A stretch of DNA of 64,000 nt from Mumia quercus (GTDB lineage Bacteria; Actinomycetota; Actinomycetes; Propionibacteriales; Nocardioidaceae). How positions within the stretch are numbered: position 1 is the first letter of the stretch; every line of letters starts with the position of its first letter. This document shows, in pieces, positions 1 through 15,908 of this stretch. The stretch spans positions 1 to 64,000 of the forward strand of contig NZ_JANZYO010000002.1 of assembly GCF_025506335.1 (NCBI RefSeq). The letters are read 5' to 3'. A program made the position numbers and the translations under genes. The notes under the pieces are model-generated. The model made no database searches and had not been told where the DNA came from. It saw only the letters and a program-made list of their open reading frames with translations.

Positions 1-1223
1 CGCACCCGGAACTTCTTGGTGGCCTTCGGGCTCCAGCCCTTCGCCGTCTTCGCCCGCACCGTCACCGTGAGCTTCCCCCGCCGCAACGACGACCGCTTCA
101 CCGTGTACGACCGCCGACCCGGCTTCAACGTCACCTTCTTGAGCACCTTCGAACCCTTACGGATCACCACCCGGTACGACCGCACCGCACGCCCACCATC
201 ATCAGCAGGCTTCTTCCACCGCACCGTCCGCTTCTTCGCCCCAGCCTTCCCCGACACCCGCACCGACCGCACCACCGACGGCCGCCTCGGGAACAACGTC
301 CGATAGATCCCGACGGTCGTCTCGGTCCGCTTCGTGACCATGTCGCCGCGGGCGTTCACCGCGAGGAGTGCCCACGAGACGGGGTACGCGCTGTCATAGC
401 TCAGTGTGCGGATCGGCGCGACGTTGCCGTACGAGGTCGACGAGAAGGCCTTGATCGCGTCGACGTGCTCGTCTCCGACGTACACGCGATTCTTGGAGTC
501 GACGTCGAGGTTGTCGATCCAGCTCAGTCCCGTACGCGATCCCGCGACCATCGCCGCAGGTGCCGTCGCACCCGTGGCTCCCCGCGCGTACACGAGCAGC
601 CTCGCCTCGTCGGCTACCCAGAGGCGCCCGTCGCTCGTGAAGGCCACGTCACGGGCCTCCACGGGGAGATGCGCACCCGCCCCTGCGAGGACCTGGGACG
701 GCGTCGCGCTGCCCGCCGCGCCAGGCGCGTACACACGCACCGCGGACTCCCCCGCGACGGCGACGTGGCCGGCCACGCTCACTCCGAGGCGGGTCCACTC
801 GCCAGGGACGACGAGCGTCCGCAGCGCCGCTCCCTTCCCGCCAGGCCGAAGGACGGTGACCTTCGAGGTACCCGTCGTTGGCCCGTGCGGATCGAGGATG
901 TACAGGCGCCCTCCACCGTCCAGCGCGATGTCGGTCGCCGCCTCGGTCGTCGGATAGCGGAGCTTACGGACCGGCTTCGCCTTCTTGCCGTCGGCGCGGG
1001 GCCCGAAGACATCGATCCGCCACCCGCCGTGCCGCAGCGCGTACACCGTCCCGTCGTCCGCGATCTCCAGGGCCAGCGACGGAGCGAACTCGTCGTCAGC
1101 AAGCGTGCGATCGGGTGTGTAGCCCACGGTGTCCGCGGACGCGGCTCCTGAGCCGGCCAGGACGAGCCCTCCGGCAGCCATCACGGCCGCTGCGGTCAAC
1201 GCTACGGTGCTTCTGATGCGCAT
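1..1223 (-). CDS. propA: secreted beta-propeller protein with C-terminal Fn3-like domain (3' end cut by window edge)
   Basis: The reading frame is open from an ATG at 1223 to the window edge; only the last arginine codon and stop are missing, judging from the paralogue next door. About 407 residues are visible. It has a Sec signal peptide (basic start, hydrophobic stretch to about residue 25, ASA-D cleavage), then a propeller built from ~45-residue repeats with motifs such as GRLYILD, VYAPGA and NRVYVGD (NHL/SMP-30-like). The last ~100 residues form a basic fibronectin-III-like domain starting near RSVRVSGKAG. A ribosome site AAAGGAG lies 8 nt before the start. Its last 309 bases are almost identical to propB. 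It lies 29 bp after propB on the same strand, so cotranscription is likely. No catalytic residues are recognised; binding at the cell surface is an inference. Confidence 0.8.
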   Translation of the reverse strand, partial: MRIRSTVALTAAAVMAAGGLVLAGSGAASADTVGYTPDRTLADDEFAPSLALEIADDGTVYALRHGGWRIDVFGPRADGKKAKPVRKLRYPTTEAATDIALDGGGRLYILDPHGPTTGTSKVTVLRPGGKGAALRTLVVPGEWTRLGVSVAGHVAVAGESAVRVYAPGAAGSATPSQVLAGAGAHLPVEARDVAFTSDGRLWVADEARLLVYARGATGATAPAAMVAGSRTGLSWIDNLDVDSKNRVYVGDEHVDAIKAFSSTSYGNVAPIRTLSYDSAYPVSWALLAVNARGDMVTKRTETTVGIYRTLFPRRPSVVRSVRVSGKAGAKKRTVRWKKPADDGGRAVRSYRVVIRKGSKVLKKVTLKPGRRSYTVKRSSLRRGKLTVTVRAKTAKGWSPKATKKFRV

Positions 1224-1252
1224 TCCTGCGCTCCTTTCGAGGTGGCTCATGG

Positions 1253-2494
1253 TCATCGCACCCGGAACTTCTTGGTGGCCTTCGGGCTCCAGCCCTTCGC
1301 CGTCTTCGCCCGCACCGTCACCGTGAGCTTCCCCCGCCGCAACGACGACCGCTTCACCGTGTACGACCGCCGACCCGGCTTCAACGTCACCTTCTTGAGC
1401 ACCTTCGAACCCTTACGGATCACCACCCGGTACGACCGCACCGCACGCCCACCATCATCAGCAGGCTTCTTCCACCGCACCGTCCGCTTCTTCGCCCCAG
1501 CCTTGCCCGACACCCGCACCGACCGCACCACCGACGGCCGCCTCGGGAACAACGTCCGATAGATCTGCAGTCGCGGCGGACCCTCATCAGGCGCCCCGAC
1601 GATCAGGTCGCCGCGGGCGTTGACGGCGACCGGCTCCGAAAAACCCCAGTCCGGATACGCGAGCTTGCGGACCGGCGCCACGTCCCCGTAGACGTTCGGC
1701 GCGAACGCGGCGATGTCCCCATACGCGTCGATGACGTAGACCCGGCCCCGACCGTCGAGGTCGATCTGCGGGCGCACGATGTCATCGTTGAGCCGAGTCC
1801 GTACTCCGGCGATCGTGCCGACCGGTGGTGTGTTGCCGTCTGCGCCACGCGCGAACGCGACGAGACGCTTGTCGATCCCCGCCCAGACCCGACCGTCGCC
1901 GCCGAACCCGACGTCACGGATCTTGGTGGGCAGACGCGTGGCCGCCCCGGTGATCACCTGCGATGGCTCCGCGGTGCCCGAGGCTCCCGGCGGATAGACA
2001 CGCAGGGCCGAGGTGCCCGCCAGAGCGATGTGCCCGGCAGGTCCCACGCCGAGCGCTGTCCACGTCCCAGGGACTACCAGCCTCCTGAGGGGATTCCCCT
2101 TCCCTCGCGGCGGGAGCACGGTGACCCTCGAGGTGCCTGGAGTCGGGCCCTTCGGCTCGAGGACGTAGACGAGTCCCTTGCCGTCCACCGACACGTCGGT
2201 GGCTCCCGCAAAGACCCCTCTCACCTCGCGGACAGGCTTGGTCTTCCTTCCGTCGGCCCGTGGCCCGAACACCCGCAGCTGCTCACCGAACCTGTTCAGG
2301 ACGTACGCCGTCCCGTCGTCAGCGATCTCGAGCGCTTCGGCCGCGTTGCCGTCGCCGTGATAGTCCGGCAGCGTCCGCTCGTGCGGGTAGGTCACCGTGT
2401 CCGCCGCCGCCGGCGCGGCACCGACCGTGGCGAGACCGCCCACGACCAGTGCCGCACCCGCGAGTGGCGCGACGATCCGCGTCATCTGTGCCAT
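1253..2494 (-). CDS. propB: secreted beta-propeller protein with C-terminal Fn3-like domain
   Basis: The protein has 413 residues: a signal peptide to about residue 31 (ending PAAADTV), NHL-like repeats (GTAYVLNRFG, GLVYVLEPKG, GRVYVIDAYG) and a basic C-terminal Fn3-like domain ending KKFRVR. The second Met (residue 4, MTRIV) is an equally good start; neither has a strong ribosome site. It is the closest relative of propA: the Fn3-coding segment differs by one base in 309. It lies between the propA gene and the remnant pseudogene, all on the minus strand with gaps under 30 bp. The propeller parts of propA and propB are clearly more diverged than the tails, so the tail was recently copied or converted. 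Function is unknown. Confidence 0.85.
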   Translation of the reverse strand: MAQMTRIVAPLAGAALVVGGLATVGAAPAAADTVTYPHERTLPDYHGDGNAAEALEIADDGTAYVLNRFGEQLRVFGPRADGRKTKPVREVRGVFAGATDVSVDGKGLVYVLEPKGPTPGTSRVTVLPPRGKGNPLRRLVVPGTWTALGVGPAGHIALAGTSALRVYPPGASGTAEPSQVITGAATRLPTKIRDVGFGGDGRVWAGIDKRLVAFARGADGNTPPVGTIAGVRTRLNDDIVRPQIDLDGRGRVYVIDAYGDIAAFAPNVYGDVAPVRKLAYPDWGFSEPVAVNARGDLIVGAPDEGPPRLQIYRTLFPRRPSVVRSVRVSGKAGAKKRTVRWKKPADDGGRAVRSYRVVIRKGSKVLKKVTLKPGRRSYTVKRSSLRRGKLTVTVRAKTAKGWSPKATKKFRVR

Positions 2495-2520
2495 GCCGGG
2501 ACGCTATCGACGTCCGGGGG

Positions 2521-2678
2521 TCACCGGACGCGGAACTTCTTGACCACCTTCGGGCTCCAGCCGTGATGTTCTTCGCGCGGACGGTCGCGCTCGCGACCCC
2601 GGCACCTGCCATCGTCACACCGCCGGCGACGAGCACGATGCTCCCCGCTGCGGCGATCGATCGTTTCGTCCTCCTCAT
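2521..2678 (-). pseudogene. Collapsed remnant of a ninth propeller-family gene
   Basis: An ATG at 2678 opens a convincing signal peptide (MRRTKRSIAAAGS, then a hydrophobic run ending GVASA). It joins directly to the family's C-terminal signature TVRAKN. One missing base later, in another frame, the stretch 2560-2521 reads GWSPKVVKKFRVR followed by a stop, exactly the tail of propB/propC. The whole propeller and most of the Fn3 domain are therefore gone, leaving signal peptide plus tail with a frameshift. The sequence fits between propB (26 bp away) and propC (5 bp away). This is direct evidence of past internal deletion in the array. A short signal-peptide peptide could still be translated. 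Confidence 0.8.
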
Positions 2679-2683
2679 TCCCC

Positions 2684-3859
2684 CTATCGCACCCTGAACG
2701 AGCGCACGACCTTCGGGCTCCAGCCCATCGCTGTCTTCGCGCGCACCGTGACCGTGAGCTTCCCGCGCCGCAACGCCGAGCGCTTCACGGTGTAGGACCG
2801 CTGACGAGGCCCCAGCTTCTTCACCTTCAGTACCTTCGAGCCCTTGCGAATCACGATCCCGTACCGGCGCACGTCGCGACCGCCGTCGTACGACGGCTTC
2901 TTCCACCGGACGGTGCGGCGCGCCGCAGCGGCCTTGCCGGTGACGCGCACCGCCCGCACCTTCGAGGCACGTGTCGGGAACATCGTCCGGTAGATCCGGA
3001 CCGCGTTGGCGCCCACAGGGACGACGATGTCGCCACGGGGACCCACGTCCTCGCCGCGCTGATACTCCGGCCGCGTCCTCGGGGGGATGGTGAGCGTACG
3101 CAGCGGCGCCACGTTGCCGTTCGCCGACGGCGCGAACACGCTCATCCGCGAGCCACCACCCGAGTACTGGCTGACGTAGACCCGCCCGGCCGCATCGACG
3201 TCGAGCTCGACACGCTCACCGAGCCCGGTCCGAGGACCGGTGACGCGACGGTCGGGAGTCGCGCTCCCTCGCGCCCCGGGCGCGTACGACAGCAGCGTGT
3301 GGGGCGACGCTCCTGCCACCCAGAGGCGGCCGTCGCCGCTGAGGGCCAGCTCGAGCGAACCCTCGGACGCCTCCGCCGGCACGTCGATCACCCGGGCGGG
3401 CGTCGCACGGCCGCGGGCAGTCCGCGAGTAGACCTGGACCCTGTAATCACCACCGAGGGTGGTCGCGATCTCTCCGGACGGGGAGAAGGCGATCGAGGTC
3501 TTGTCGTCTCGGAGCTCCAGTGCCCGCAGCGGTTTGGGCGACGTCGCGCCGTGCGGGTAGACCTTGATGAGGGTGTCGACGTCCCGCTCCCCCGCTGACA
3601 GGGCGTAGAGGCGACCCGCTGCATCAGTCGCAAGCGCATCGAGGACATCGACGTACACGGTGGGCTTCTGCACCCGCACCGGCCGGGCGTTCCCGCGTGC
3701 ACCGGGCCCGAAGACACGGATGGTCGGCGGGTCCGTCGCCCGCAGCACGTACGTCGTGCCGTCCGGCCCGACCGCGAGCCCCGCAGGGCTGCCGACCTTC
3801 GCCCGGTCGCCGGCGGTGGCGACCGCGGTCGTCGCGGCCAGCATTCGTCGTCTGCTCAT
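2684..3859 (-). CDS. propC: beta-propeller protein with Fn3-like domain and shortened signal region
   Basis: The protein has 391 residues. It has the family propeller (GRLYALSAGE, GRLWVAGAS, GRVYVSQYSG) and basic Fn3-like tail ending GWSPKVVRSFRVR. The N-terminus is unlike its neighbours: after MSRRRMLAATTAVATA it runs straight into the first repeat, so the hydrophobic segment is only about ten residues and the usual leader (DTV..PERTI) is absent. No strong ribosome site precedes either Met1 or Met6. It may be poorly secreted, use a different start, or have lost part of its signal peptide. It is probably the first gene of the propC-pseudogene-propB-propA unit, since a channel gene lies upstream. 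Confidence 0.78.
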   Translation of the reverse strand: MSRRRMLAATTAVATAGDRAKVGSPAGLAVGPDGTTYVLRATDPPTIRVFGPGARGNARPVRVQKPTVYVDVLDALATDAAGRLYALSAGERDVDTLIKVYPHGATSPKPLRALELRDDKTSIAFSPSGEIATTLGGDYRVQVYSRTARGRATPARVIDVPAEASEGSLELALSGDGRLWVAGASPHTLLSYAPGARGSATPDRRVTGPRTGLGERVELDVDAAGRVYVSQYSGGGSRMSVFAPSANGNVAPLRTLTIPPRTRPEYQRGEDVGPRGDIVVPVGANAVRIYRTMFPTRASKVRAVRVTGKAAAARRTVRWKKPSYDGGRDVRRYGIVIRKGSKVLKVKKLGPRQRSYTVKRSALRRGKLTVTVRAKTAMGWSPKVVRSFRVR

Positions 3860-3943
3860 GAGTGTGTTCCAGTCTGTGTGGATCCGCTGCGATGCGGAGG
3901 GGCCGTTGAGTGGTGCGTGCTCATCGGCCCAGAGGAGCCCTGG

Positions 3944-4591
3944 TCAGGCGTCGCGACGGCGCTTGGTCACGCCCGAGACCGCAAGAGCGACGACGGTCAC
4001 CAGGTAGACCTGGCCGATCAGCGCCTCGAACGCGGCGAGCATCTTGCCCGTGTCGGTCGCGGGGGTCAGATCCCCGAAGCCGGTCGTCGTGATGGTGACG
4101 AAGCTGAAGTAGAAGTAGTCGACGCCGTCGTGGACGTCGGGCGTCTGTGCGAAGAAGACGCCGTCCCAGGCGCCCATGAAGGCATACAGCCCCGAGAACG
4201 CGTACCCCAAGAGCAGGTAGACGACGATGACACCGAGCACGATGTGCACGTCGAGCGACGGGTCGCGGACGAGGTGCGCACCGATCGTCGCGATCGTCGC
4301 CAGGCACAGCACGACCACGATCGCCGAGTACGCCATGGTCGCCGCGCGATCCTGCGCCACCTGGGCGACCGCACTCGCGACGATCCCCAGCACCACCAGG
4401 ACGCTCGAGGCAAGGACCACCGGGCGCCGGGCGCCCGACGTGCGCTGGGCGAAGAGCAGCGCCGCGCCCAGGAGCGCCGCGACGAGCGGCCGCAGCCACG
4501 GGTTGTCCACCGGGACCAAGAGCACCACGACGGCCAGCAGGATCAGCAGGATCCCGTACCGGTCCCGACGTGGTGCCCTCTGGTCGTCCAC
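3944..4591 (-). CDS. Two-TM-pore potassium channel-like membrane protein
   Basis: This is a 215-residue integral membrane protein with a GTG start. Hydrophobic segments lie near residues 13-28, 34-48, 58-80, 86-106 and 116-138, then a pore loop and a last helix around 184-205. The selectivity filter reads TTTGFGD at 168-174, the form of K+ channel filter (TXGYG/TXGFG) in the Ion_trans_2 family, so K+ passage is the expected role. The first helices resemble small actinobacterial ion channel proteins without a cytosolic RCK domain; the C-terminus is only a short basic tail. It sits inside the propeller array on the same strand, with no visible reason for the link. Its upstream gap to propD is 52 bp. 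Confidence 0.82.
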   Translation of the reverse strand: MDDQRAPRRDRYGILLILLAVVVLLVPVDNPWLRPLVAALLGAALLFAQRTSGARRPVVLASSVLVVLGIVASAVAQVAQDRAATMAYSAIVVVLCLATIATIGAHLVRDPSLDVHIVLGVIVVYLLLGYAFSGLYAFMGAWDGVFFAQTPDVHDGVDYFYFSFVTITTTGFGDLTPATDTGKMLAAFEALIGQVYLVTVVALAVSGVTKRRRDA

Positions 4592-4643
4592 GACACGTGA
4601 GCCTAGGGGTCAACATGCTGCGCCGCAGAAGCATTGCCGTGGC

Positions 4644-5570
4644 CTATCGGATCAGCCGGGGATAAATGACGATCCGGTTCTTGTACGCCGAGACGGCGAC
4701 CTTGCCCGTGCGGCTGACCGAGAGCCCGTTGATCGATCCGTGTCGCGCGTTGCTGACGACGCGCAGTGGCGTTGTCTCGCCTGACGCGGTACGGGGCAGG
4801 ACGTAGACGTGGCCCCAGTGGAGGCTGACGTACGCGCGGCCGGCGCGGTCGAAGTCCAGCACCTCCGGCTCCCACAGACTCGGCCACTCGCCGGTGATCT
4901 TCCGCTCCGGCGCGACATCACCCTTAGCGCCCGGTGCGAACACCGTGATGAACTCGCCTTCGCCGAAGGTCGCCCAAATCCGGCGGTCGACGTTCATCTT
5001 GGCATCGATCCTGCCGACCAGCTCCGTCTTCGGACCGGCGATCTCCCGCAACGGCTGGGCGTCGCCCGCTGCCGAGCGCCGGTAGATCCTGAGGAAACCC
5101 CATCCCACGACCAGCATGCGCTTGTGGGGCGTCATCGACACCGAGCCGATGTACGCCCCGGTGCGCAGGACACGGATCGGCCGGACGTTGCCCCGCGCCC
5201 GCTTGCCGAAGACGAGAACCCGTTTGTTGCCGTTGGCGACGTACAGACGGCCATCACTGTCACGTGCAATGCTGCGTGGCTGGAACAGGCGCGTGCGCTT
5301 GCCTGCGATCCGGTAGAGCGGCCGCGCGTTTCCGCGGGCCTTCGCACCGTAAACGACGATGCGGTTGCGGGCGAAGTCCGTGACGTACGTCCGCCCGGAG
5401 GTCGACAGGTGGACCGCGCGGAAGTCCTTGGCGCCAGCCTTCGCGCCCTTGATCGTGCGTTCCGGTCGCACGTCGACTGGGTCGGTCGGTGCGGCCTCGG
5501 CGGGGCTGCTGACGAGCAGCCCACCTGTGAGTGCGGCTACGGCGACCAGGCCGCTGGTCTGACGCTTCAT
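4644..5570 (-). CDS. propD: secreted beta-propeller protein without the Fn3-like tail
   Basis: The protein has 308 residues from the ATG at 5570, chosen because a good ribosome site (CAGGGGGAA) precedes it and a signal peptide follows (MKRQTSG, hydrophobic core, AEAAPTD). Repeats such as GRTYVTDFARN, GRLYVANGNK and GRAYVSLHWG mark the same propeller family as its neighbours. It stops at IYPRLIR, just where the other members continue into the Fn3-like domain, so it is a propeller-only version. Either the tail was lost here or this is the ancestral form. It is followed by the channel gene and preceded by propE, 94 bp upstream, all minus strand. Confidence 0.82.
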   Translation of the reverse strand: MKRQTSGLVAVAALTGGLLVSSPAEAAPTDPVDVRPERTIKGAKAGAKDFRAVHLSTSGRTYVTDFARNRIVVYGAKARGNARPLYRIAGKRTRLFQPRSIARDSDGRLYVANGNKRVLVFGKRARGNVRPIRVLRTGAYIGSVSMTPHKRMLVVGWGFLRIYRRSAAGDAQPLREIAGPKTELVGRIDAKMNVDRRIWATFGEGEFITVFAPGAKGDVAPERKITGEWPSLWEPEVLDFDRAGRAYVSLHWGHVYVLPRTASGETTPLRVVSNARHGSINGLSVSRTGKVAVSAYKNRIVIYPRLIR

Positions 5571-5664
5571 CACGGTTCCCCCTGAGTTCGGATGTCGAAT
5601 CCAGGGAGTCTCAGCCGCATGCTCCGAGCCGATCAACACCTTTCGACAGGCCTCAAAAGGCCCG

Positions 5665-6909
5665 CTACTTCCGCACGCGGAACGCCTTCTTCGCGGACGG
5701 GCCGTAGCCCTTGGCGTTCTTGGCCCTCACGAAGACGGTGAGCTTGCCATTGCGAAGCTTGGCGCGCTTGAGCGTGTACGACCGCCTGGTCGCCCCGAGA
5801 TCGCGGCGCAGCAGCGTCTTGCCGCCCTTCTTGACGACGAGCCGGTAGCCGGTGATCCGTGCGCCTCCGTTGCTCGACGGCGCCTTCCACGAGACCTTCC
5901 GCGACTTCGCGGCCCGCTTCCCGGAGACCTTCAGGGCGCGCGGCTTGCCCGGGACCTTCACCGTCGGCTTCGGCTTCGGCGGCGCGGGCAAGCTCAGGGG
6001 GCCGAACGTGCTGACAGTGCCGCGCACGTAGCTCGCCACCACGACCTCGCCGCCCGCCCCGACCGCGACGCTCACCGGGAACTCGATGCCCGTCCGCGGC
6101 CCGCGCAGCACGGCGATCGGCGCGACGTCCCCGTACGCGCCGGGGGCGAAGACCTTGACGTCGTGGCCCGTGTAGTCGCTCACGTAGACCCGGCCGGCGG
6201 CATCGAGCGCCACGTCGGTCGGCTGCTGCAGCCCCGTACGCGCGCCCGCGATCCGGCGGGTCACGGTCCCGGCGCCTGCGGGGTCCTGCACCATCCGGAC
6301 CTCGCGCGCCGCCGCGGCGGCCGCCCAGAGGCGACCGGTCCTGTCGACCTCGAGGCCTCGCAGGCCCGACCCGCCGGCCATGGTGAGCGTCCCGTCGACG
6401 ATCTCGTCGCCGGGCGCGAACCGCTCGATCGTGTGCTCGCGGTCCCCCACGTACGCGGTGCCGTCCGGCGAGACCGCGATCCCGACGCCCTCACCCTTCA
6501 GCGCAAGGGTCCGTACGGGCACGGCGCCACCGTCGGCGCCGGCCGCGAAGACCCGCGCCCCGCTCGCGAACGTGCTCACGTACGCGCGCGTGCTGCCGTC
6601 GAGCGCGATCCCGAACGGGCCGGACGGGAAGCCGGTCACGCGCCGGATCGGTGTCGCCTCACCCTGTGCCCCCTTCGCGAACACCGCGTACGCGAACCCC
6701 GCCGTGGTCACGTAAGTCTCCCCTGCTGCCGAGACAGCCACGCCTTGCGGTGACGCGACGCCGGTGACCGTGCGCAGCGGGGTGACGTCATGAACGGCGG
6801 GCGCCGCGGTTGCCGACGGTGGCGCGGCCAGCACGGCGGCGGCCAGTCCGAGCGCGGTGACGGTGCCGAGCGCGCGGGTGCGTGTGGGGCGGGACGGGGC
6901 GAGACGCAT
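5665..6909 (-). CDS. propE: secreted beta-propeller protein with C-terminal Fn3-like domain
   Basis: The protein has 414 residues from the ATG at 6909, which has an AGGAGGG ribosome site and opens a signal peptide cut near TATAAP. Propeller repeats include GETYVTTAG, GRLWAAAAA and GRVYVSDYTG, each followed by a KVFAPGAYGD-type strand. A proline/lysine linker (about residues 308-320) leads to the basic Fn3-like domain, ending KKAFRVRK. propE to propH share the linker form KVPGKPRALKVSGK and the final lysine, which separates them from propA-propC. The ribosome site lies in one arm of a 12-bp perfect hairpin (6912-6960). Function is unknown. Confidence 0.85.
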   Translation of the reverse strand: MRLAPSRPTRTRALGTVTALGLAAAVLAAPPSATAAPAVHDVTPLRTVTGVASPQGVAVSAAGETYVTTAGFAYAVFAKGAQGEATPIRRVTGFPSGPFGIALDGSTRAYVSTFASGARVFAAGADGGAVPVRTLALKGEGVGIAVSPDGTAYVGDREHTIERFAPGDEIVDGTLTMAGGSGLRGLEVDRTGRLWAAAAAAREVRMVQDPAGAGTVTRRIAGARTGLQQPTDVALDAAGRVYVSDYTGHDVKVFAPGAYGDVAPIAVLRGPRTGIEFPVSVAVGAGGEVVVASYVRGTVSTFGPLSLPAPPKPKPTVKVPGKPRALKVSGKRAAKSRKVSWKAPSSNGGARITGYRLVVKKGGKTLLRRDLGATRRSYTLKRAKLRNGKLTVFVRAKNAKGYGPSAKKAFRVRK

Positions 6910-6911
6910 GA

Positions 6912-6960
6912 GGCCCTCCTCGGGTGAGCGTGCACGAGTCACGATCCACCGAGGAGGGCC
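6912..6960 (-). promoter_or_regulatory. Hairpin enclosing the propE ribosome binding site
   Basis: On the message strand GGCCCTCCTCGG (6960-6949) pairs perfectly with CCGAGGAGGGCC (6923-6912), a 12-bp stem with a 25-nt loop. The second arm contains the Shine-Dalgarno AGGAGGG, and the start codon follows two bases later. This could block translation until melted. It could also act as a terminator for propF. A separate 6-bp stem (6968-6986) lies just after the propF stop. Confidence 0.55.
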
Positions 6961-6997
6961 CACAGGGCGCCGGCATTGCACCGGCGTTGTTCACGAC

Positions 6998-8257
6998 CTA
7001 CTTGCGGACGCGGAACGACTTCTTCGCGTTCTTGCCGAAGCCCTTCTTGTTCTTCGCCTTGAGGTAGACCGTGTTCTTGCCGTTGCGCAGCTTGGCGCGC
7101 TTGATCTTGTACGACCGCTTGCTCGCGCCGAGGTTCTTCCTGAGCAGGACCCGGTTGCCCTTCTTGACCACCAGCCGGTAACCGGTGATCCTGGCGCCTC
7201 CGTTGTTGGCCGGCGGCCTCCACGAGACCCGCCGCGTCTTGGCACGTGCCTTGCCGGACACCTTGACGGCCCGCGGCTTGCCCGGGACCTTCACGGCAGG
7301 CTTCGGCGGAGCGAACAGCGGCGCGAACGAGGAGATGTCGTTGCCGCCGTAGTCGGCGACGACGAGCGTCCCGTTCGGCGTGACCGAGATACCGGCGGGC
7401 AGCGTCAGGGCTGCCGCAGGGCCACCGAGCACCTTGATCGGCGCGACGTCACCGTTCGCGTTGGCCGCGAAGACCTTCACGTCCTTCGCCACCTCGTCGA
7501 CGACGTACACACGCCCGGACGCGTCGACGTCGACATCGCTCGCGAACTGGATCTGCGTCTGTGCCCCCTTGATCAGGCGCGCGGGCGTCGGGTCGCCGGT
7601 GGCTCCCGGCGAGAACGCGACGACCGAGTCGCCGGAGCCGTTGGCGACCCAGAGGCGGTTCCCCGCATCGACCGCGAGGCCGCGCGCGTTGGTGAGGCGC
7701 GAGCTCGTGATCGTACGCTCAGCGGCAGGCGTGCCCGTCGCCGACAGCGGGAACACCTTGATCGTGGTGGTGCCGTTCGAGACGTTGACCTTGTTGCTCT
7801 TGTCGATCGTGATGCCGAACGGCACGAAGCCGGGGTCGAACTTCGCGTCCGGAGCGACCGGGCCATCGGCCGTCGGGCCGAAGGCGAGCACGCGGTTGGC
7901 TGCCGTCCCCGTCGAGTTGGCGACCCAGGTGAAGCCCGCGCTGTCAGCCGCCACATGACGTGGAGAGACGATCAGCGAGGCCGCGCCGGAGATGCTCCGC
8001 TGCGGCGGTACGTCGCCGTTGGCGTTGGCGGCGAACACGCTCACCGACCCGCCACCGAAGTTGCTGACATGGATCTTGCCGTCGCGGACGTACATGCCGA
8101 GCGGCTGGTTGAGCCCGGTGTTGGTCGGGCCCTTGATCGTACGGACGGGTGCGACGCTGACGTCGTCGGCGGAGGCGCTGGGACCGAGAGCTGCCAGCGT
8201 TCCTGCGATGAGTGCGGTGCCGGCAAGGGCGCCGGTCACGCGGATGGTGTGGTTCAT
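6998..8257 (-). CDS. propF: secreted beta-propeller protein with C-terminal Fn3-like domain
   Basis: The protein has 419 residues. The start has an AAGGGGGAA ribosome site and opens a signal peptide (MNHTIRVTGALAG, cleavage near SASADD). Propeller strands such as GKIHVSNFGG, NRLWVANGSG and GRVYVVDEVA alternate with VFAANANGDV-type strands. The linker KPAVKVPGK leads to the basic Fn3-like domain ending KKSFRVRK. It is a close sister of propG, matching it along the whole length, including the phrases RTIKGPTNTGL, GFTWVA and AERTITSS. The ribosome site lies in a weaker hairpin (8264-8297). Confidence 0.85.
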   Translation of the reverse strand: MNHTIRVTGALAGTALIAGTLAALGPSASADDVSVAPVRTIKGPTNTGLNQPLGMYVRDGKIHVSNFGGGSVSVFAANANGDVPPQRSISGAASLIVSPRHVAADSAGFTWVANSTGTAANRVLAFGPTADGPVAPDAKFDPGFVPFGITIDKSNKVNVSNGTTTIKVFPLSATGTPAAERTITSSRLTNARGLAVDAGNRLWVANGSGDSVVAFSPGATGDPTPARLIKGAQTQIQFASDVDVDASGRVYVVDEVAKDVKVFAANANGDVAPIKVLGGPAAALTLPAGISVTPNGTLVVADYGGNDISSFAPLFAPPKPAVKVPGKPRAVKVSGKARAKTRRVSWRPPANNGGARITGYRLVVKKGNRVLLRKNLGASKRSYKIKRAKLRNGKNTVYLKAKNKKGFGKNAKKSFRVRK

Positions 8258-8263
8258 GGTTTT

Positions 8264-8297
8264 CCCCCTTCGCCGTCCACAGTGGGCACGAAGAGGG
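8264..8297 (-). promoter_or_regulatory. Hairpin enclosing the propF ribosome binding site
   Basis: In the message, CCCTCTTCG (8297-8289) can pair with CGAAGGGGG (8272-8264), nine pairs with one U-G wobble. The second arm is the propF Shine-Dalgarno, ending six bases before the ATG. The loop holds CCACTGTGG, also present in the propG hairpin loop. Confidence 0.4.
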
Positions 8298-8318
8298 TCA
8301 CGCTATGTCTACTTTGTC

Positions 8319-9587
8319 CTATTTACGGACGCGGAACGACTTCGTGGCGTTCTTGCCGTAACCCTTGGCGTTCTTGGCCTTGACGAAGACGGTGACCCTG
8401 CCGCTGCGCAGCTTCGCGCGCTTGAGCGTGAACGACCGCCTCGACGCGCCGAAGGTCCGCTTGACCAGCGTCTTGTTGCCCCTCTTCACCACCAGCCGGT
8501 ATCCGGTGATCCTGGCTCCCCCGTTGCTGGACGGCGCCCGCCACGACACCTTGCGTGTCTTGGCACCCCGCTTGCCCGCGACCTTCAGGGCCCGCGGCTT
8601 GCCCGGGACCTTCACCGCGGGCTTCGGCACGGGCTTCGTCGTCACCGGCGCGAAGAGCGGCGCGAACGACGAGATGTCGTCCCCTCCGTAATCAGCCACG
8701 ACCAGCGTCCCTTCCCGCGCAACCGCCGCTCCCGCCGCCATGGTCAGCGCTGCCGCCGGCCCGCCGAGCACCTTGATCGGCGCAACGTCGCCGTTCGCGG
8801 TGGCGGCGAAGACCTTGACGTTTTTCGCATGGTGGTCCACGACGTACACACGCCCAGCCGCGTCGAGGGCGACGTCGGTCGCGAACTGGATCTGCGTCCG
8901 AGGTCCCTTGATCACGCGCACGGGTTCCGCGTCGCCGATGGCCCCGGGCGCGAACGCGACGACGGAGGCACCGAGGCCGTTGGCCACCCACAGCCGATTC
9001 GCCCCATCGACCGCCAGGCCGCGTGCGTTGGTCAGGTGGGAGCTTGTGATCGTACGCTCGGCGGCAGGCGTGCCGGTCGCCGAGATCGGGAACACCCTGA
9101 TCGTCTTGACGAGGTCCGAGACATTGACCTTGTTGCTCCTGTCGACGGCAATGCCGTACGGATTGATGCCGGGATCAAATACCGCATCCGGAGCGACGTT
9201 GCCGTCGGCCGTCGGGGCGAAGGCGAACACACGGTCGAGGTCTGCGACCCAGGTGAAGCCCGCGCTGTCCACCGAGACGTCATGGGGGTTGGTGATGAGC
9301 GACGCCGCGCCCGAGATCCTCCTCAGCGGCCGTACGTCGCCGTTGGCGCCGGCGGCGAACACACTGAGCGAGCGGTCATCGGCGTTGCTGACGAAGATCT
9401 TGCCGTCACGGACATCCAAATCCACCGGCCCGGCGAGTCCCGTGTTGGTGGGCCCCTTGATCGTACGGATCGGAGCGACGTGGATGTTGACGTCGTCGGC
9501 GGTCGCGCTGGGCCCCACGGCCACGAGAGATCCTGCGATGAGCGCGGTGCCGGCAAGAGCGACGGGCACGCGGATGGTGTGGTTCAT
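8319..9587 (-). CDS. propG: secreted beta-propeller protein with C-terminal Fn3-like domain
   Basis: The protein has 422 residues from the ATG at 9587, preferred to an upstream in-frame start because of the GAAGGAGG ribosome site and the signal peptide that follows (MNHTIRVPVALAG, cleavage near SATADD). Propeller repeats include GKIFVSNADD, NRLWVANGLG and GRVYVVDHHA. The linker carries an extra TTKPVPKP compared with propF. The Fn3-like tail ends TKSFRVRK. It shares its propeller with propF but a 74-base identical tract of tail-coding DNA with propH, so it is mosaic. Its ribosome site is inside the strongest hairpin of the set. Confidence 0.85.
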   Translation of the reverse strand: MNHTIRVPVALAGTALIAGSLVAVGPSATADDVNIHVAPIRTIKGPTNTGLAGPVDLDVRDGKIFVSNADDRSLSVFAAGANGDVRPLRRISGAASLITNPHDVSVDSAGFTWVADLDRVFAFAPTADGNVAPDAVFDPGINPYGIAVDRSNKVNVSDLVKTIRVFPISATGTPAAERTITSSHLTNARGLAVDGANRLWVANGLGASVVAFAPGAIGDAEPVRVIKGPRTQIQFATDVALDAAGRVYVVDHHAKNVKVFAATANGDVAPIKVLGGPAAALTMAAGAAVAREGTLVVADYGGDDISSFAPLFAPVTTKPVPKPAVKVPGKPRALKVAGKRGAKTRKVSWRAPSSNGGARITGYRLVVKRGNKTLVKRTFGASRRSFTLKRAKLRSGRVTVFVKAKNAKGYGKNATKSFRVRK

Positions 9588-9633
9588 GGTGTGCCTCCTT
9601 CGTGACCACAGTGGACACGAAGGAGGCCACACC
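9588..9633 (-). promoter_or_regulatory. Long hairpin enclosing the propG ribosome binding site
   Basis: In the message GGTGTGGCCTCCTTCGTG (9633-9616) pairs with CACGAAGGAGGCACACC (9604-9588): 17 pairs with one bulged G and an 11-nt loop. The second arm contains the whole Shine-Dalgarno and touches the ATG. Translation would need this stem to open; termination of propH transcription is the alternative role. Confidence 0.6.
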
Positions 9634-9647
9634 CCATCCTCTTTGCG

Positions 9648-10874
9648 CTACTTGCGGACGTGGAACGGCTTCGTGGCGTTCTTGCCGTACCCCTTGGCGT
9701 TCTTGGCCTTGACGAAGACGGTGACCCTGCCGTCGCGCAGCTTCGCGCGCTTGAGCGTGAACGACCGCTTGCTTGCGCCGACGTTCTTCCGCAAGAGGAC
9801 CTTGTTGCCCTTCTTCACCACCAGCCGGTATCCGGTGATCCTCGCTCCGCCATTGCTCGACGGCGCCCGCCACGACACCTTGCGTGTCTTGGCACCCCGC
9901 TTGCCCGCGACCTTCAGGGCCCGCGGCTTGCCGGGCACTGTCACGACCTTCGGCGGCGCCGCCGGGAAGAGCGGCCCGAACTCCAGGACCGACTTCCCGG
10001 AGTAGTTCGCGACCACCAGGCGCCCGTTCCCGGCGACGTCGAGGTGAGCCGGGTAGTTGAGCCGGGTCGCCGGCCCACCGAGGACCTTGAGCGGAGCGAC
10101 GTTCCCTCGCGCGCCGGGAGCGAACGCGAGGACCGTGCTGAACGCGTGGAAGTTCGACGCGTAGACCCGCCCCGCGCTGTCCGTCCCGATGCCGACGATC
10201 CCGCTGGTCAGCTCGGTCGCCGCCCCGGTGATCGTCCGCAGCGGCGTCGCCGCTCCGGCCGCACTCGGCGCGAAAGCGTGCAGGGCAGCCGCCGAGTCCA
10301 CCCAGGTCGTCCCGTCGGGAGTGACATGGACCCCACTACCACCTCCAAGACCCGTGATCTGGCGTGTCGTCGTCGCGGGGTTGCCCACCGCCGCCGGCGA
10401 GTAGACGTTGACCGTCGTCGACTTGCGCACGAAGATGCTGCCGGTCGGGCCGATGTCGAGGCCGAGCGCCGCACCGGTGCCGGTCCCGAAGGTCTTGACC
10501 GGAGCGTCGCCGGTGTCGGCGTCTGGGGCGAATACCGAGACCAGCCCGTTGTTGTTCGCGACATAGGTGAAGCCCAGGTCGTCGACGGCAACGCCACGCG
10601 GGCCGTCGAGACCGGAGGTCATGGTGCGCAGCGGTGCAGCGGCGCCGTTGGCCCCTGCGGCGTACACGACCACGTTGTTCTGGACGTAGTTCGAGACATA
10701 CGTGCGCCCCGCGGACTTCGTCACGCCGAACGGGGTGGTGGTCGCGCCGGTGATCTCGCGCTCGGGCAGGACGTTGACGGTGTCGGCGGCTGCGCTCGGG
10801 CCGGCGACGACCATCGCCGCGGCGACGAGCGCGACGGCGGACAGTACGGCGGACGTGCGGACGGTTCGGTTCAT
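9648..10874 (-). CDS. propH: secreted beta-propeller protein with C-terminal Fn3-like domain
   Basis: The protein has 408 residues with a signal peptide (MNRTVRTSAVLSA, cleavage near SAAADTV). Propeller strands include GRTYVSNYVQN, GFTYVANNNG and GRVYASNFHA. The Fn3-like tail after VTVPGKPRALKVAGK is almost the same as in propG but ends KPFHVRK, where others have FRVRK. It is the first gene of the minus-strand run and so probably carries a promoter of the array; the 64 bp between it and the DUF1330 stop leave little room, and no clear -35/-10 was found. Its ribosome site GAAGGGAGAA is in a hairpin. Confidence 0.85.
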   Translation of the reverse strand: MNRTVRTSAVLSAVALVAAAMVVAGPSAAADTVNVLPEREITGATTTPFGVTKSAGRTYVSNYVQNNVVVYAAGANGAAAPLRTMTSGLDGPRGVAVDDLGFTYVANNNGLVSVFAPDADTGDAPVKTFGTGTGAALGLDIGPTGSIFVRKSTTVNVYSPAAVGNPATTTRQITGLGGGSGVHVTPDGTTWVDSAAALHAFAPSAAGAATPLRTITGAATELTSGIVGIGTDSAGRVYASNFHAFSTVLAFAPGARGNVAPLKVLGGPATRLNYPAHLDVAGNGRLVVANYSGKSVLEFGPLFPAAPPKVVTVPGKPRALKVAGKRGAKTRKVSWRAPSSNGGARITGYRLVVKKGNKVLLRKNVGASKRSFTLKRAKLRDGRVTVFVKAKNAKGYGKNATKPFHVRK

Positions 10875-10879
10875 GGCAG

Positions 10880-10911
10880 TTCTCCCTTCGCCCCCTCACG
10901 GTGAAGGAGAA
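10880..10911 (-). promoter_or_regulatory. Hairpin enclosing the propH ribosome binding site
   Basis: In the message TTCTCCTTC (10911-10903) pairs with GAAGGGAGAA (10889-10880), nine pairs with one bulge. The second arm is the propH Shine-Dalgarno, ending five bases before the ATG. It is the fourth member of the hairpin series in front of propE-propH. Confidence 0.45.
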
Positions 10912-10938
10912 GGGGTCACCAGGGGTGTCGCTTTGCCC

Positions 10939-11271
10939 TCACGGGGTTGTCACATTGAGGACGTCTGTCGCGCGGTGGTCCTCGTCGACACCGTCGACGA
11001 CGATCACGTTCGACACGGAGTTCTCGGTACGCAGCGGAAGGATCGCCTGGTAGGCGGGCGACTCGTACCACGCCTTCACCTGCTCCCGGTCCGGGAACTT
11101 GATGATGATGATCGTCGACGACCAGGAGCCCTCGACCTCGGTCACCTTGCCGCCGTGGACGATGAACTTCCCTCCGTACGGGGCGAGCGTCTCGTCGATC
11201 CGCTCGAGGTAGGTCACGATCTCGGGTCCCATCGAGACCTCGCGCATGTCGGCGATGGCGTAGGCGGTCAT
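10939..11271 (-). CDS. DUF1330 family protein
   Basis: The protein has 110 residues from the ATG at 11271, which has a GAAGGAGC ribosome site; an in-frame upstream ATG has none. The pattern MTAYAIADMR, then GGKFIVHGGKV and IIKFPDREQVKAWYESPAYQ, is typical of the DUF1330 alpha/beta ferredoxin-like (dimeric barrel) family. The biochemical role of this family is not established. It is cytoplasmic, with no signal peptide. It diverges from the ArsR-type regulator gene 168 bp away, and the gene order suggests, but does not prove, joint control. Confidence 0.8.
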   Translation of the reverse strand: MTAYAIADMREVSMGPEIVTYLERIDETLAPYGGKFIVHGGKVTEVEGSWSSTIIIIKFPDREQVKAWYESPAYQAILPLRTENSVSNVIVVDGVDEDHRATDVLNVTTP

Positions 11272-11373
11272 CTGCGTGCTCCTTCGTGTGGGGCGGCTTG
11301 TCCTGTCCCGCAAGCCTCCCGCGAGCGTCGGCACGGAGTCGATGACCTCGGAGGTCATGATTTCGCGGAGGGG

Positions 11374-11402
11374 TTGACAGGCCGCGCCAGCGAGCGCATT
11401 CT
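11374..11402 (+). promoter_or_regulatory. Candidate promoter of the arsR-type gene
   Basis: A perfect -35 box TTGACA (11374-11379) is followed, after 17 bases, by CATTCT (11397-11402), a poor -10. Downstream, the two similar stretches CAGTTATAC and CGGTTATGG precede the ATG and could be the regulator's binding sites. Confidence 0.35.
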
Positions 11403-11439
11403 AAAACCATCCAGTTATACAACAGATCGGTTATGGATA

Positions 11440-11778
11440 ATGACGGACGACGAGCTCGACGCGGTGTTCGGGGCACTCGCGGATCCCACGCGACGCGCCA
11501 TCCTGGCCCGCCTGGCGCGGGGCGACGCCAGCGTCAACGAGCTCACGGCCATGTTCGCGATGTCGCAGCCCGCGGTGTCGCGTCACCTCAAGGTCCTGGA
11601 GCGCGCCGGGCTCGTCTCGCGCGCACAGCAGGGGACCATGCGGCTCAGCCACCTTGAGGCGGGACCGCTGAGGGAGGCCACGGACTGGCTCGCGGACTAT
11701 CGGGCGTACTGGGAGGACAGCTTCGCCCGGCTCGACGCGATCCTCGCCGAGGCCGACGACCCGCCCGCCGGCACCTGA
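11440..11778 (+). CDS. ArsR-family winged-helix transcriptional regulator
   Basis: The protein has 112 residues. The N-terminal half is a winged helix: FGALADPTRRAILARLARG, then SVNELTAMFAMSQPAVSRHLKVLERAGLV, the recognition helix of ArsR/SmtB proteins. No metal-binding cysteine pair is present, as in the group of ArsR-type repressors that pair with SRPBCC (AHSA1-like) genes. The ATG at 11440 fits the domain; the ATG seven bases upstream is in another frame. It is 28 bp upstream of such an SRPBCC gene on the same strand, so a two-gene autoregulated operon is likely. The ligand is unknown. Confidence 0.88.
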   Translation: MTDDELDAVFGALADPTRRAILARLARGDASVNELTAMFAMSQPAVSRHLKVLERAGLVSRAQQGTMRLSHLEAGPLREATDWLADYRAYWEDSFARLDAILAEADDPPAGT

Positions 11779-11806
11779 CCGGTCACCGACACCCCAAGGG
11801 GGAACC

Positions 11807-12283
11807 ATGTCCGACCTCGAAGTCACCGCAACACCGGGCACGAGCACGATCGAAATCAGCCGGTCGTTTGCGACCACACCCGAGCGGCTTTACCACGCCA
11901 TGATCGACGACGAGCTGCAGAGGCAGTGGCTCGGCCCCGACCGCCTCACGACCGAGATCGAGATCAACGAGGTGCGCGACGGCGGCCGGTGGCGGTGGGT
12001 CCAGAAGGACACCGACGGGACCGAGTACGGCTTCCGCGGCGTCTACCACGGCGAGCCGTCCGTCGAGAACGGCATCACCCGGACGTTCGAGTTCGACGGC
12101 GTCCCGGGCCACGTGTCGCTGGAGACCCTGCGGTTCACCGACCTCGGCGGCGGGTCGACCCGCATCGACATCGTCTCCGCGTTCATGTCGGTCGAGGACC
12201 GCGACGGCATGGTCGAGTCCGGCATGGAGGGCGGCATGGAGGAGGGGTACGTCCGCCTGGACAAGATCCTCGCCGACTCCTGA
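11807..12283 (+). CDS. SRPBCC (AHSA1-like, START-fold) protein
   Basis: The protein has 158 residues with a good ribosome site (AAGGGGGAA). It starts with the strand/helix pattern IEISRSFATTPERLYHAMIDDELQRQWLG, the signature of Activator-of-Hsp90-ATPase-1-like START proteins, and continues with GGRWRWVQKD and GFRGVYH. The fold forms a deep hydrophobic pocket for a small ligand. The pairing with the upstream ArsR gene is a common actinobacterial arrangement. The true ligand or reaction cannot be read from sequence. Confidence 0.85.
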   Translation: MSDLEVTATPGTSTIEISRSFATTPERLYHAMIDDELQRQWLGPDRLTTEIEINEVRDGGRWRWVQKDTDGTEYGFRGVYHGEPSVENGITRTFEFDGVPGHVSLETLRFTDLGGGSTRIDIVSAFMSVEDRDGMVESGMEGGMEEGYVRLDKILADS

Positions 12284-12326: not shown

Positions 12327-13412
12327 GTGGCAGCGTTCGCATCTGACAACTACGCCCCCGCCCATCCCGCGGTCCTCGAGGCGCTGGTCGCCGCCAACGA
12401 GGGGCACGCGGTCTCGTACGGAGAGGACCGCTGGACCGAGCACCTCGCGGAGGTCGTACGGCACCACTTCGGCGACCACGCCGTCGCGTACCCGGTCTTC
12501 AACGGCACCGGCGCCAACGTCGTCTCGCTGGCGGCCGCACTCCCCCGCTGGGGTTCGGCGATCGTCACCGACGTCGCCCACCTGCACACCGACGAGAACG
12601 GCGCCCCCGAGCGCGTCGCCGGCATCAAGCTCCTCACGGTCGACGCCCCGGACGGCAAGATGCACCCGGAGTCGTTCGGACCGTACGTGCTCAACCTCGG
12701 CGACCCGCACCGTCCGCAGCCGTTGGCCGTCTCGTTGACCCAGTCGACGGAGCTCGGCACCGTCTACTCCGTCGACGAGGTCCGCGGACTCGTCGACACC
12801 GCGCACGCGTATGGGATGCGCGTCCACATGGACGGCTCCCGGCTGGCCAACGCCGCCGCGCACCTCCGCCTCCCCCTCCGCGCGCTCACCACCGACCTCG
12901 GGATCGACGTGCTGTCGTTCGGCGGCACCAAGAACGGCCTCGTGCTCGGCGAGGCGGTGGTCGTCCTCAACCCGGAGGCGGTCGCCGGGATCGAGTACGT
13001 TCGCAAGATGTCGATGCAGCTGGCATCGAAGATGCGTTACGTCTCCGCTCAGCTCGTCGCCCTCCTCGACCCCGAGCGCGACCTGTGGCTCGCGAACGCC
13101 TCGGCCTCCAACGCCCGCGCAACCCGCCTGCGCGAGGGCGTCGACGCGCTCGCCGCGGAGCTTGCCCGCGACGGCAGGACGCACGACTCCGGCGCGCCGC
13201 TGTTGCACATCGCCTACCCGACGCAGGCCAACGTGGTCTTCCCTACGCTCCCCCGCGCCGTCGCCGATGCCGTACGCGCGGAGCACCCGTTCTACGACTG
13301 GCGTCCGACGGCGCACCCCGACCTCGTCGAGTCCCGCTGGATGTGCTCGTGGGACACGACCGACGAGGATGTCGACGCGTTCCTCGCCTCGCTCCGCAAG
13401 GCCTTCGGATGA
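12327..13412 (+). CDS. ltaE: Low-specificity L-threonine aldolase (PLP enzyme)
   Basis: The protein has 361 residues with a GTG start. This fold-type I PLP enzyme begins FASDNYAPAHPAVLEAL, with FNGTGANVVSL near residues 58-68 (cofactor binding), MDGSRLANAA at 168-177 (Asp169 pairs with the pyridine nitrogen) and SFGGTKNGL with Lys202 as the likely Schiff-base lysine. It splits threonine or allo-threonine into glycine and acetaldehyde in the cytosol. The next gene's ATG overlaps its TGA, so the two are translated in tandem. A relative in the beta-eliminating lyase family is the only alternative. Confidence 0.88.
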   Translation: MAAFASDNYAPAHPAVLEALVAANEGHAVSYGEDRWTEHLAEVVRHHFGDHAVAYPVFNGTGANVVSLAAALPRWGSAIVTDVAHLHTDENGAPERVAGIKLLTVDAPDGKMHPESFGPYVLNLGDPHRPQPLAVSLTQSTELGTVYSVDEVRGLVDTAHAYGMRVHMDGSRLANAAAHLRLPLRALTTDLGIDVLSFGGTKNGLVLGEAVVVLNPEAVAGIEYVRKMSMQLASKMRYVSAQLVALLDPERDLWLANASASNARATRLREGVDALAAELARDGRTHDSGAPLLHIAYPTQANVVFPTLPRAVADAVRAEHPFYDWRPTAHPDLVESRWMCSWDTTDEDVDAFLASLRKAFG

Positions 13413-15194: not shown

Positions 15195-15908
15195 ATGACC
15201 AAAGCCGAGGTTTCCGAGCTCCCCGACGGCCCACCGGACGCTAGCGGACTGACTCCCCGCCAGCGACGCGTGCTCGAGATCATCCGCGAGTCGATCGAGC
15301 AGAAGGGCTACCCGCCCAGCATGCGCGAGATCGGCGCGGCGGTCGGTCTCGCCAGCGTCTCCTCGGTCGCGCACCAGCTCAAGGTCCTCGAGCGCAACGG
15401 CTTCGTCAGGCGCGACCCCAACCGCCCGCGCGCGATCGAGGTCCGCCTGCCCGACGTCCTCGCGGCGCGGCGCTCGATCGGCGACGCGGCCGACTTCGGC
15501 TTCGACGACACCGGCTCGGGCGACTCACGACCCGCCCCCGCGTACGTCCCGATGGTCGGACGGATCGCGGCCGGCGGCCCGATCCTCGCCGAGGAGCGCG
15601 TCGAGGAGATCATGCCGCTCCCCCGTACGCTCGTCGGCGAGGGCACCCTGTTCATGCTCGAGGTCCGTGGTGACTCGATGGTCGAGGCCGCGATCTGCGA
15701 CGGCGACTACGTCGTCGTCCGCCAGCAGCCCACCGCCGAGAACGGCGAGATCGTCGCCGCGCTGCTCGACGGCGAGGCCACGGTCAAGACCCTCCAGCGC
15801 AAGGACGGCAAGGTCTGGCTCCTTCCCCACAACCCGGCGTACGACCCGATCGACGGGACCGACGCCGCGATCCTCGGCAAGGTCACCACGGTCATGCGGC
15901 GCGTCTGA
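15195..15908 (+). CDS. lexA: LexA SOS repressor / self-cleaving protease
   Basis: The protein has 237 residues. The N-terminal winged helix (about 19-85) has [16 protein letters not shown] and the recognition helix [18 protein letters not shown]. The C-terminal S24 peptidase domain has the Ala126-Gly127 cleavage bond ([10 protein letters not shown]), nucleophile Ser161 (GDSMVEA) and general base Lys198 (EATVKTL). It represses SOS genes as a dimer and is cut when RecA filaments form. An acidic linker (about 100-113) separates the domains. It is divergent from the LysM gene, with four LexA boxes in between, and converges on the helicase gene downstream. Confidence 0.97.

Follow-up and report, generated by a model that had tools for sequence, protein, structure and literature searches.

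Which process has made the last 309 bases of two neighbouring genes almost identical, when the genes upstream of this segment differ at two bases in five? The window, the whole 64,000-nucleotide stretch of Mumia DNA that we analysed (bases 1–64000 of contig C6, with window base 1 at contig base 1), opens with a direct repeat whose copies, at 1–309 and 1257–1565 (offset 1256), differ at a single base, C at 249 and G at 1505 (BLAST: 309 bp, 99.68% identity, E 1e-162). On the coding (minus) strand, the two copies form the 3′ ends, the last 103 codons, of two adjacent genes: copy 1 is the tail of gene A, with the final base of its last codon and the stop on contig C12, and copy 2 is the tail of gene B (codons 311–413). 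The mismatch is silent, lying at the third position of its codon, and over the readable part of copy 1 both tails encode the same protein sequence. The 248-base exact run within the repeat is the longest exact direct repeat (≥30 bases) across the 64-kb window, in which we found no inverted 30-mers. The left end of the repeat is the end of gene A, which reads CGC TGA on C12 and CGA TGA in gene B; the repeat is therefore complete at 309 bases, beginning inside the propeller's final strand and finishing with the final codon. At its other end, identity at the fixed offset of 1256 collapses immediately from base 310 (20/50 at 351–400, 13/50 at 401–450). The original prediction of a duplicated 309-bp tail with one mismatch, a sharp boundary and diverged propeller flanks is thus confirmed: the aligned pair differs only at 249/1505, identity stops abruptly after base 309, and DNA identity is 99.7% in the tail and 59.9% in the gapped alignment of the propellers, where 40% of the aligned bases differ. 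Open frames that cross the repeat on the opposite strand, such as 1242–1562 (plus strand), are common in high-GC DNA and were discounted.

Genes A and B head an array of related genes, all on the minus strand, between positions 1 and 10874. Gene A (3–1256) runs off the contig start, and its start codon shares bases with the gene B stop (ATGA); gene B (1253–2494) encodes 413 amino acids. Both are predicted to encode secreted beta-propellers with a basic, Fn3-like C-terminal tail; signal peptides of the array proteins were judged by eye. Gene C (2684–3859) has a tail whose DNA is 77% identical to the tails of A and B. It is 23 residues shorter than its counterpart in the congener genome G003; the missing residues belong to the signal-peptide region, and the product of gene C may no longer be secreted. 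An ion-channel gene (PF07885, 3944–4591) lies between gene C and the next array member, and similar DNA precedes the counterpart of gene C in G003. Two genes with a propeller and a tail of a second tail group follow at 5665–6981 and 6998–8257, and two further members lie at 8319–9632 and 9648–10874. In addition, the array contains two reduced copies. Between B and C, the relic at 2521–2678 joins a signal-peptide-like start out of frame to the last tail codons (44-base match at 84%, three-frame translation) and looks as if its propeller had been deleted. The member at 4644–5639 has no tail: its reading frame stops after IYPRLIR, at the junction of propeller and tail. In G004, the corresponding gene, with 71% identity across 286 aligned residues, carries an Fn3 tail. 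The counterparts of 4644–5639 in G003, G004 and G005 combine less basic tails (+18 to +22) with unusually basic propellers (+23 to +28). The relic and the tail-less member together suggest losses within the array.

We characterized the encoded domains by profile and structure searches. NHL repeats (PF01436) exceed the Pfam cut-off in four of the seven tailed window genes (A, 5665, 6998 and 8319) and in 4644; gene 9648 scores below the cut-off, and B and C have no match listed. All seven tailed genes match fn3 (PF00041) with E-values of at most 0.1; two exceed the cut-off of 25 (26.1 and 27.5), and B scores 23.6. A tail profile search returned mostly titin Fn3 domains, and NCBIfam gave weak matches to the ScyD/ScyE and ScyF families, all below cut-off. 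The structure model of gene B (12 sequences, mean pLDDT 84) predicts an NHL-like propeller fold and a mostly beta tail domain; ranked by E-value, its Foldseek hits are led by the periplasmic sensor BT4663 (several chains), and ranked by fit, by the NHL propellers of Thin, Brat and TRIM2, with a TM by target near 0.7. In this model the propeller's last strand spans residues 308–312, and the tail domain has its first strand from residue 325 on. Identity with A starts at residue 311, so that the repeat boundary falls inside the former strand, 14 residues ahead of the latter. Across Mumia, the last 95 residues carry a net charge of +27 to +34 in 28 of the 32 tailed genes and of +18 to +22 in the remaining ones, and the net charge outside the tail is −2 to +6 in 22 of the 32 and +9 to +28 in the rest. 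Judging from charge alone, one may guess that the basic tail binds the cell wall.

The position of copy 1 at the start of a contig raises the concern, already part of the original prediction, that the assembler placed one tail on both genes or masked differences between them. The assembly comprises 13 contigs (4.10 Mb), and contig C12 (203,663 bases) terminates in exactly bases 1–127 of the repeat. A comparison of 18 of the 26 contig ends, excluding two short contigs with only trivial self-matches, revealed nine pairs that share exactly 127 bases, including C6/C12, and one further pair that shares 132. These overlaps suggest that the assembler used a de Bruijn graph at k=127; the contig break at the window start is caused by the repeat itself. 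The C12 overlap anchors bases 1–127 of copy A to unique DNA, and the mismatch at 249 together with the flank from base 310 anchors its other side. In a k=127 graph, a hidden further mismatch requires at least 127 identical bases on each side. Without the difference at 249, positions 128–182 would permit a closed, poppable bubble; with it, no such position exists. Given the value of k deduced above, the 249/1505 difference therefore leaves no room in the assembly graph for a second mismatch concealed in a collapsed bubble. Moreover, the acetyltransferase gene at the C12 end directly adjoins the array in two of the five congener stretches (G003 and G004), with no match in those of G001, G002 and G005. 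Its place beside the array supports C12 as the continuation of C6 and hence the reading of the gene A stop as CGC TGA. On this contig evidence we treat both copies, and the one base at which they differ, as real; within the limits of such evidence, the concern is answered against an artefact, which we consider very improbable. As a separate observation, the acetyltransferase gene next to the array in G003 (L062 6880–7369) matches in pieces, at 59% versus 95–98%, as if frameshifted or mosaic.

If both copies are real, purifying selection might have kept the tails identical without any exchange of DNA, and the tails are indeed better conserved than the propellers in protein sequence across the family (mean identity 53% versus 34%; 325 pairs, 26 genes). 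We therefore compared silent sites, using codons that encode the same residue in both sequences, for 26 of the 32 tailed genes. Between A and B, such codons are identical at 101 of 102 positions in the tail and at 75 of 150 in the propeller (Fisher p 2e-20), and 68 of 69 fourfold sites in the tail agree. By comparison, a tail pair from two species with 95% protein identity (G003_7413 and G004_6013) retains 75 of 98 identical same-residue codons, a rate at which at least 101 of 102 has a probability of 5e-11. Homogenisation of silent sites in the A/B tail means that selection at the protein level fails to explain the identity, and the region 1–12000 has no Rfam match at the gathering score, giving no hint of constraint at the RNA level. 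The chance that selection alone accounts for the repeat is thus practically negligible. Same-residue codon agreement is higher in tails than in propellers throughout the family (means 0.60 and 0.50), so that part of the family-wide contrast reflects composition or selection. These averages give no sign of general homogenisation of tails within genomes (0.607 within, 0.602 between genomes).

Run statistics and trees separate the histories of the two domains. In a run test with 2000 permutations, A and B share the longest run among 28 pairs, 123 polymorphic sites (59 third positions), and reach p 0.0005, the floor of 1/2001, with all sites as well as with third positions. Other pairs also reach the floor. 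Among them, B and G004_7266 do so with all sites, through a tail run of just 15 sites, and gene C and G003_8655 do so with third positions, through a run in the propeller; short tail runs give low p in some other between-genome pairs as well. Since the test ignores uneven rates along a gene, it is weak on its own where rates vary. In trees of 24 of the 32 tailed genes, the A and B propellers are sisters separated by more than one change per residue, and the tails of the same genes are nearly zero apart. Because A and B are mutual nearest relatives by propeller, the conflict between their trees is one of depth and not of topology. We also compared fourfold sites in the flanking gene 15195–15908, which are identical at 43/51 in G003, 43/61 in G004, 92/141 in G005 and 61/95 in G002, on partial alignments for three of the four genomes; frame w12183 (four rows) was excluded, as it behaves as the antisense of 12327–13412 (plus strand, Beta_elim_lyase). 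Set beside the fourfold agreement of the A/B tails, these values make the A/B event look younger than the species splits.

The reading that best accommodates these data, at a probability of about 0.83, is recent gene conversion between old tandem paralogs, as originally predicted: homogenisation of silent sites is confined to the tail, and the shared run is the longest found. A and B would be old neighbours in which a recent homologous recombination event overwrote one tail with the other and spared the propeller. The tract would end on one side at the stop codon, beyond which A and B have no homology, and on the other at the propeller/tail junction, where about 60% identity is left, presumably too little for strand exchange to continue. 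A RecA-type pathway, a non-reciprocal transfer, and A and B of one chromosome as donor and recipient are inferred parts of this scheme. The proposed limitation to the Fn3-like domain holds as a description, with the boundary at residue 311 of B, but a domain-specific mechanism is unneeded: the tail is the stretch with the most homology left, and a domain-like boundary follows from the homology profile.

The original prediction named unequal exchange as an alternative, by which a gene or tail would have been copied recently and its propeller then lost or replaced. The genes lie in tandem on the same strand, and nearby signs of loss (the relic at 2521–2678 and the tail-less 4644–5639) speak in favour of this course. 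It nonetheless fits less well, as crossing-over in the tail adds or removes a whole 1256-base unit and, by our reasoning, would leave a duplicated propeller, whereas the propellers of A and B are both old, and in the trees each has the other as its closest relative; the extra events needed make it improbable. Import of the tail from another cell by homologous recombination would, with one genome per species, be indistinguishable from conversion within the chromosome. Yet a ready donor copy lies only 1.25 kb away, and the nearest tail among array genes of the five other Mumia genomes is only 85% identical, which renders import quite improbable. In this comparison of one genome per species, no unconverted A/B state was seen, a point against the conversion reading.

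Gene conversion between A and B may not be the only exchange in the array. Genes 8319–9632 and 9648–10874 are 86.5% identical in tail DNA and 54.2% in propeller DNA, and their same-residue codons agree at 80/92 in the tail and 64/120 in the propeller. The propeller of 9648 groups with genes of G004, G002 and G005 (support 100/99), its tail with that of 8319 (99/95). AU tests, with groups chosen after the trees were seen, reject on tail data the propeller clades of 9648 (p 0.003) and of 8319 (p 0.0045) and on propeller data the grouping of 8319 with 9648 (p 1.7e-6). The run test for this pair gives p 0.0005 with all sites, which survives correction for 66 pairs, and p 0.0015 with third positions, which does not. 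We interpret the conflict between these trees as evidence of an older tail exchange. Two further candidates were not adopted. Gene C and its G003 counterpart are 86.7% identical in propeller DNA and 80.3% in tail DNA (same-residue codons 197/233 versus 58/84), and we do not claim a third exchange, as neither tail has a donor among the pairs listed. A tail tract within G005 (8835/10155) reaches p 0.0015 at third positions and fails the 66-pair correction. From these comparisons of sequence, conversion in the array looks episodic rather than a general homogenisation.

We determined how widely such genes occur. Array-type genes are present in all six Mumia genomes, with 32 tailed genes in total. 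Among 149 genomes of the Nocardioidaceae, at least 18 have a match at E 1e-10 or better, namely the six Mumia genomes, with 3 to 11 matches each, and 12 further genomes with a single match; the scan scored a subset of its first-look candidates, so that the counts are possibly low. Among 196 genomes of the order, a tail match at E 1e-12 or better occurs in 12, which include two Mumia genomes, and one non-Mumia genome of the order, G262, contains two such tails in larger open frames. A near-identical pair of tails within one genome occurs in one of the six Mumia genomes; the best pair in each of the other five is 72 to 81% identical.

The process itself is known and fairly ordinary bacterial gene conversion, of which A and B are probably a further example. 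We found no paper on the Mumia propeller array in the literature searched, and its proteins are not known to be related to those of PE_PGRS17 and PE_PGRS18, the adjacent paralogs of Mycobacterium tuberculosis. The latter genes resemble A and B as neighbours in a high-GC actinobacterium whose tract exchange is ascribed to gene conversion (PMC1762029); there, however, conversion is shown by a series of strains, where Mumia offers one genome per species. Gene conversion of PE/PPE genes is also described in an outbreak (PMC12046097). For ligA and ligB of Leptospira, a review infers gene conversion that was favoured by the genes lying in tandem (PMC7821625). These genes, tandem in some strains, share one near-identical segment with the remainder unique to each, and encode surface proteins of Ig-like domains, a likeness to A and B by description (PMC7821625). 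In contrast to the 3′ tail of A and B, the identical part of ligA and ligB is a 5′ segment with its upstream region (PMC7821625). The tufA and tufB genes of Salmonella serve as an experimental model for conversion tracts between duplicate genes and are nearly identical, while A and B are mostly strongly diverged (PMC5485169 for tufA and tufB).

A and B thus provide a clean natural case of conversion that stops at a domain boundary in a tandem family, and they show that a short-read assembly can break at a conversion tract and still vouch for it through contig overlaps. Secreted propellers with strikingly basic tails in six of six Mumia genomes merit functional work. A further-reaching reading, which we hold to be rather unlikely, is that the array is a standing exchange system, in which recurrently converted cationic tails would act as recombination handles, propellers would be gained, lost and re-tailed, and strains would differ in their sets of secreted propellers. 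On that reading, one homologous crossover within the 309-base repeat would produce a clean 1256-base deletion of gene A and leave gene B intact.
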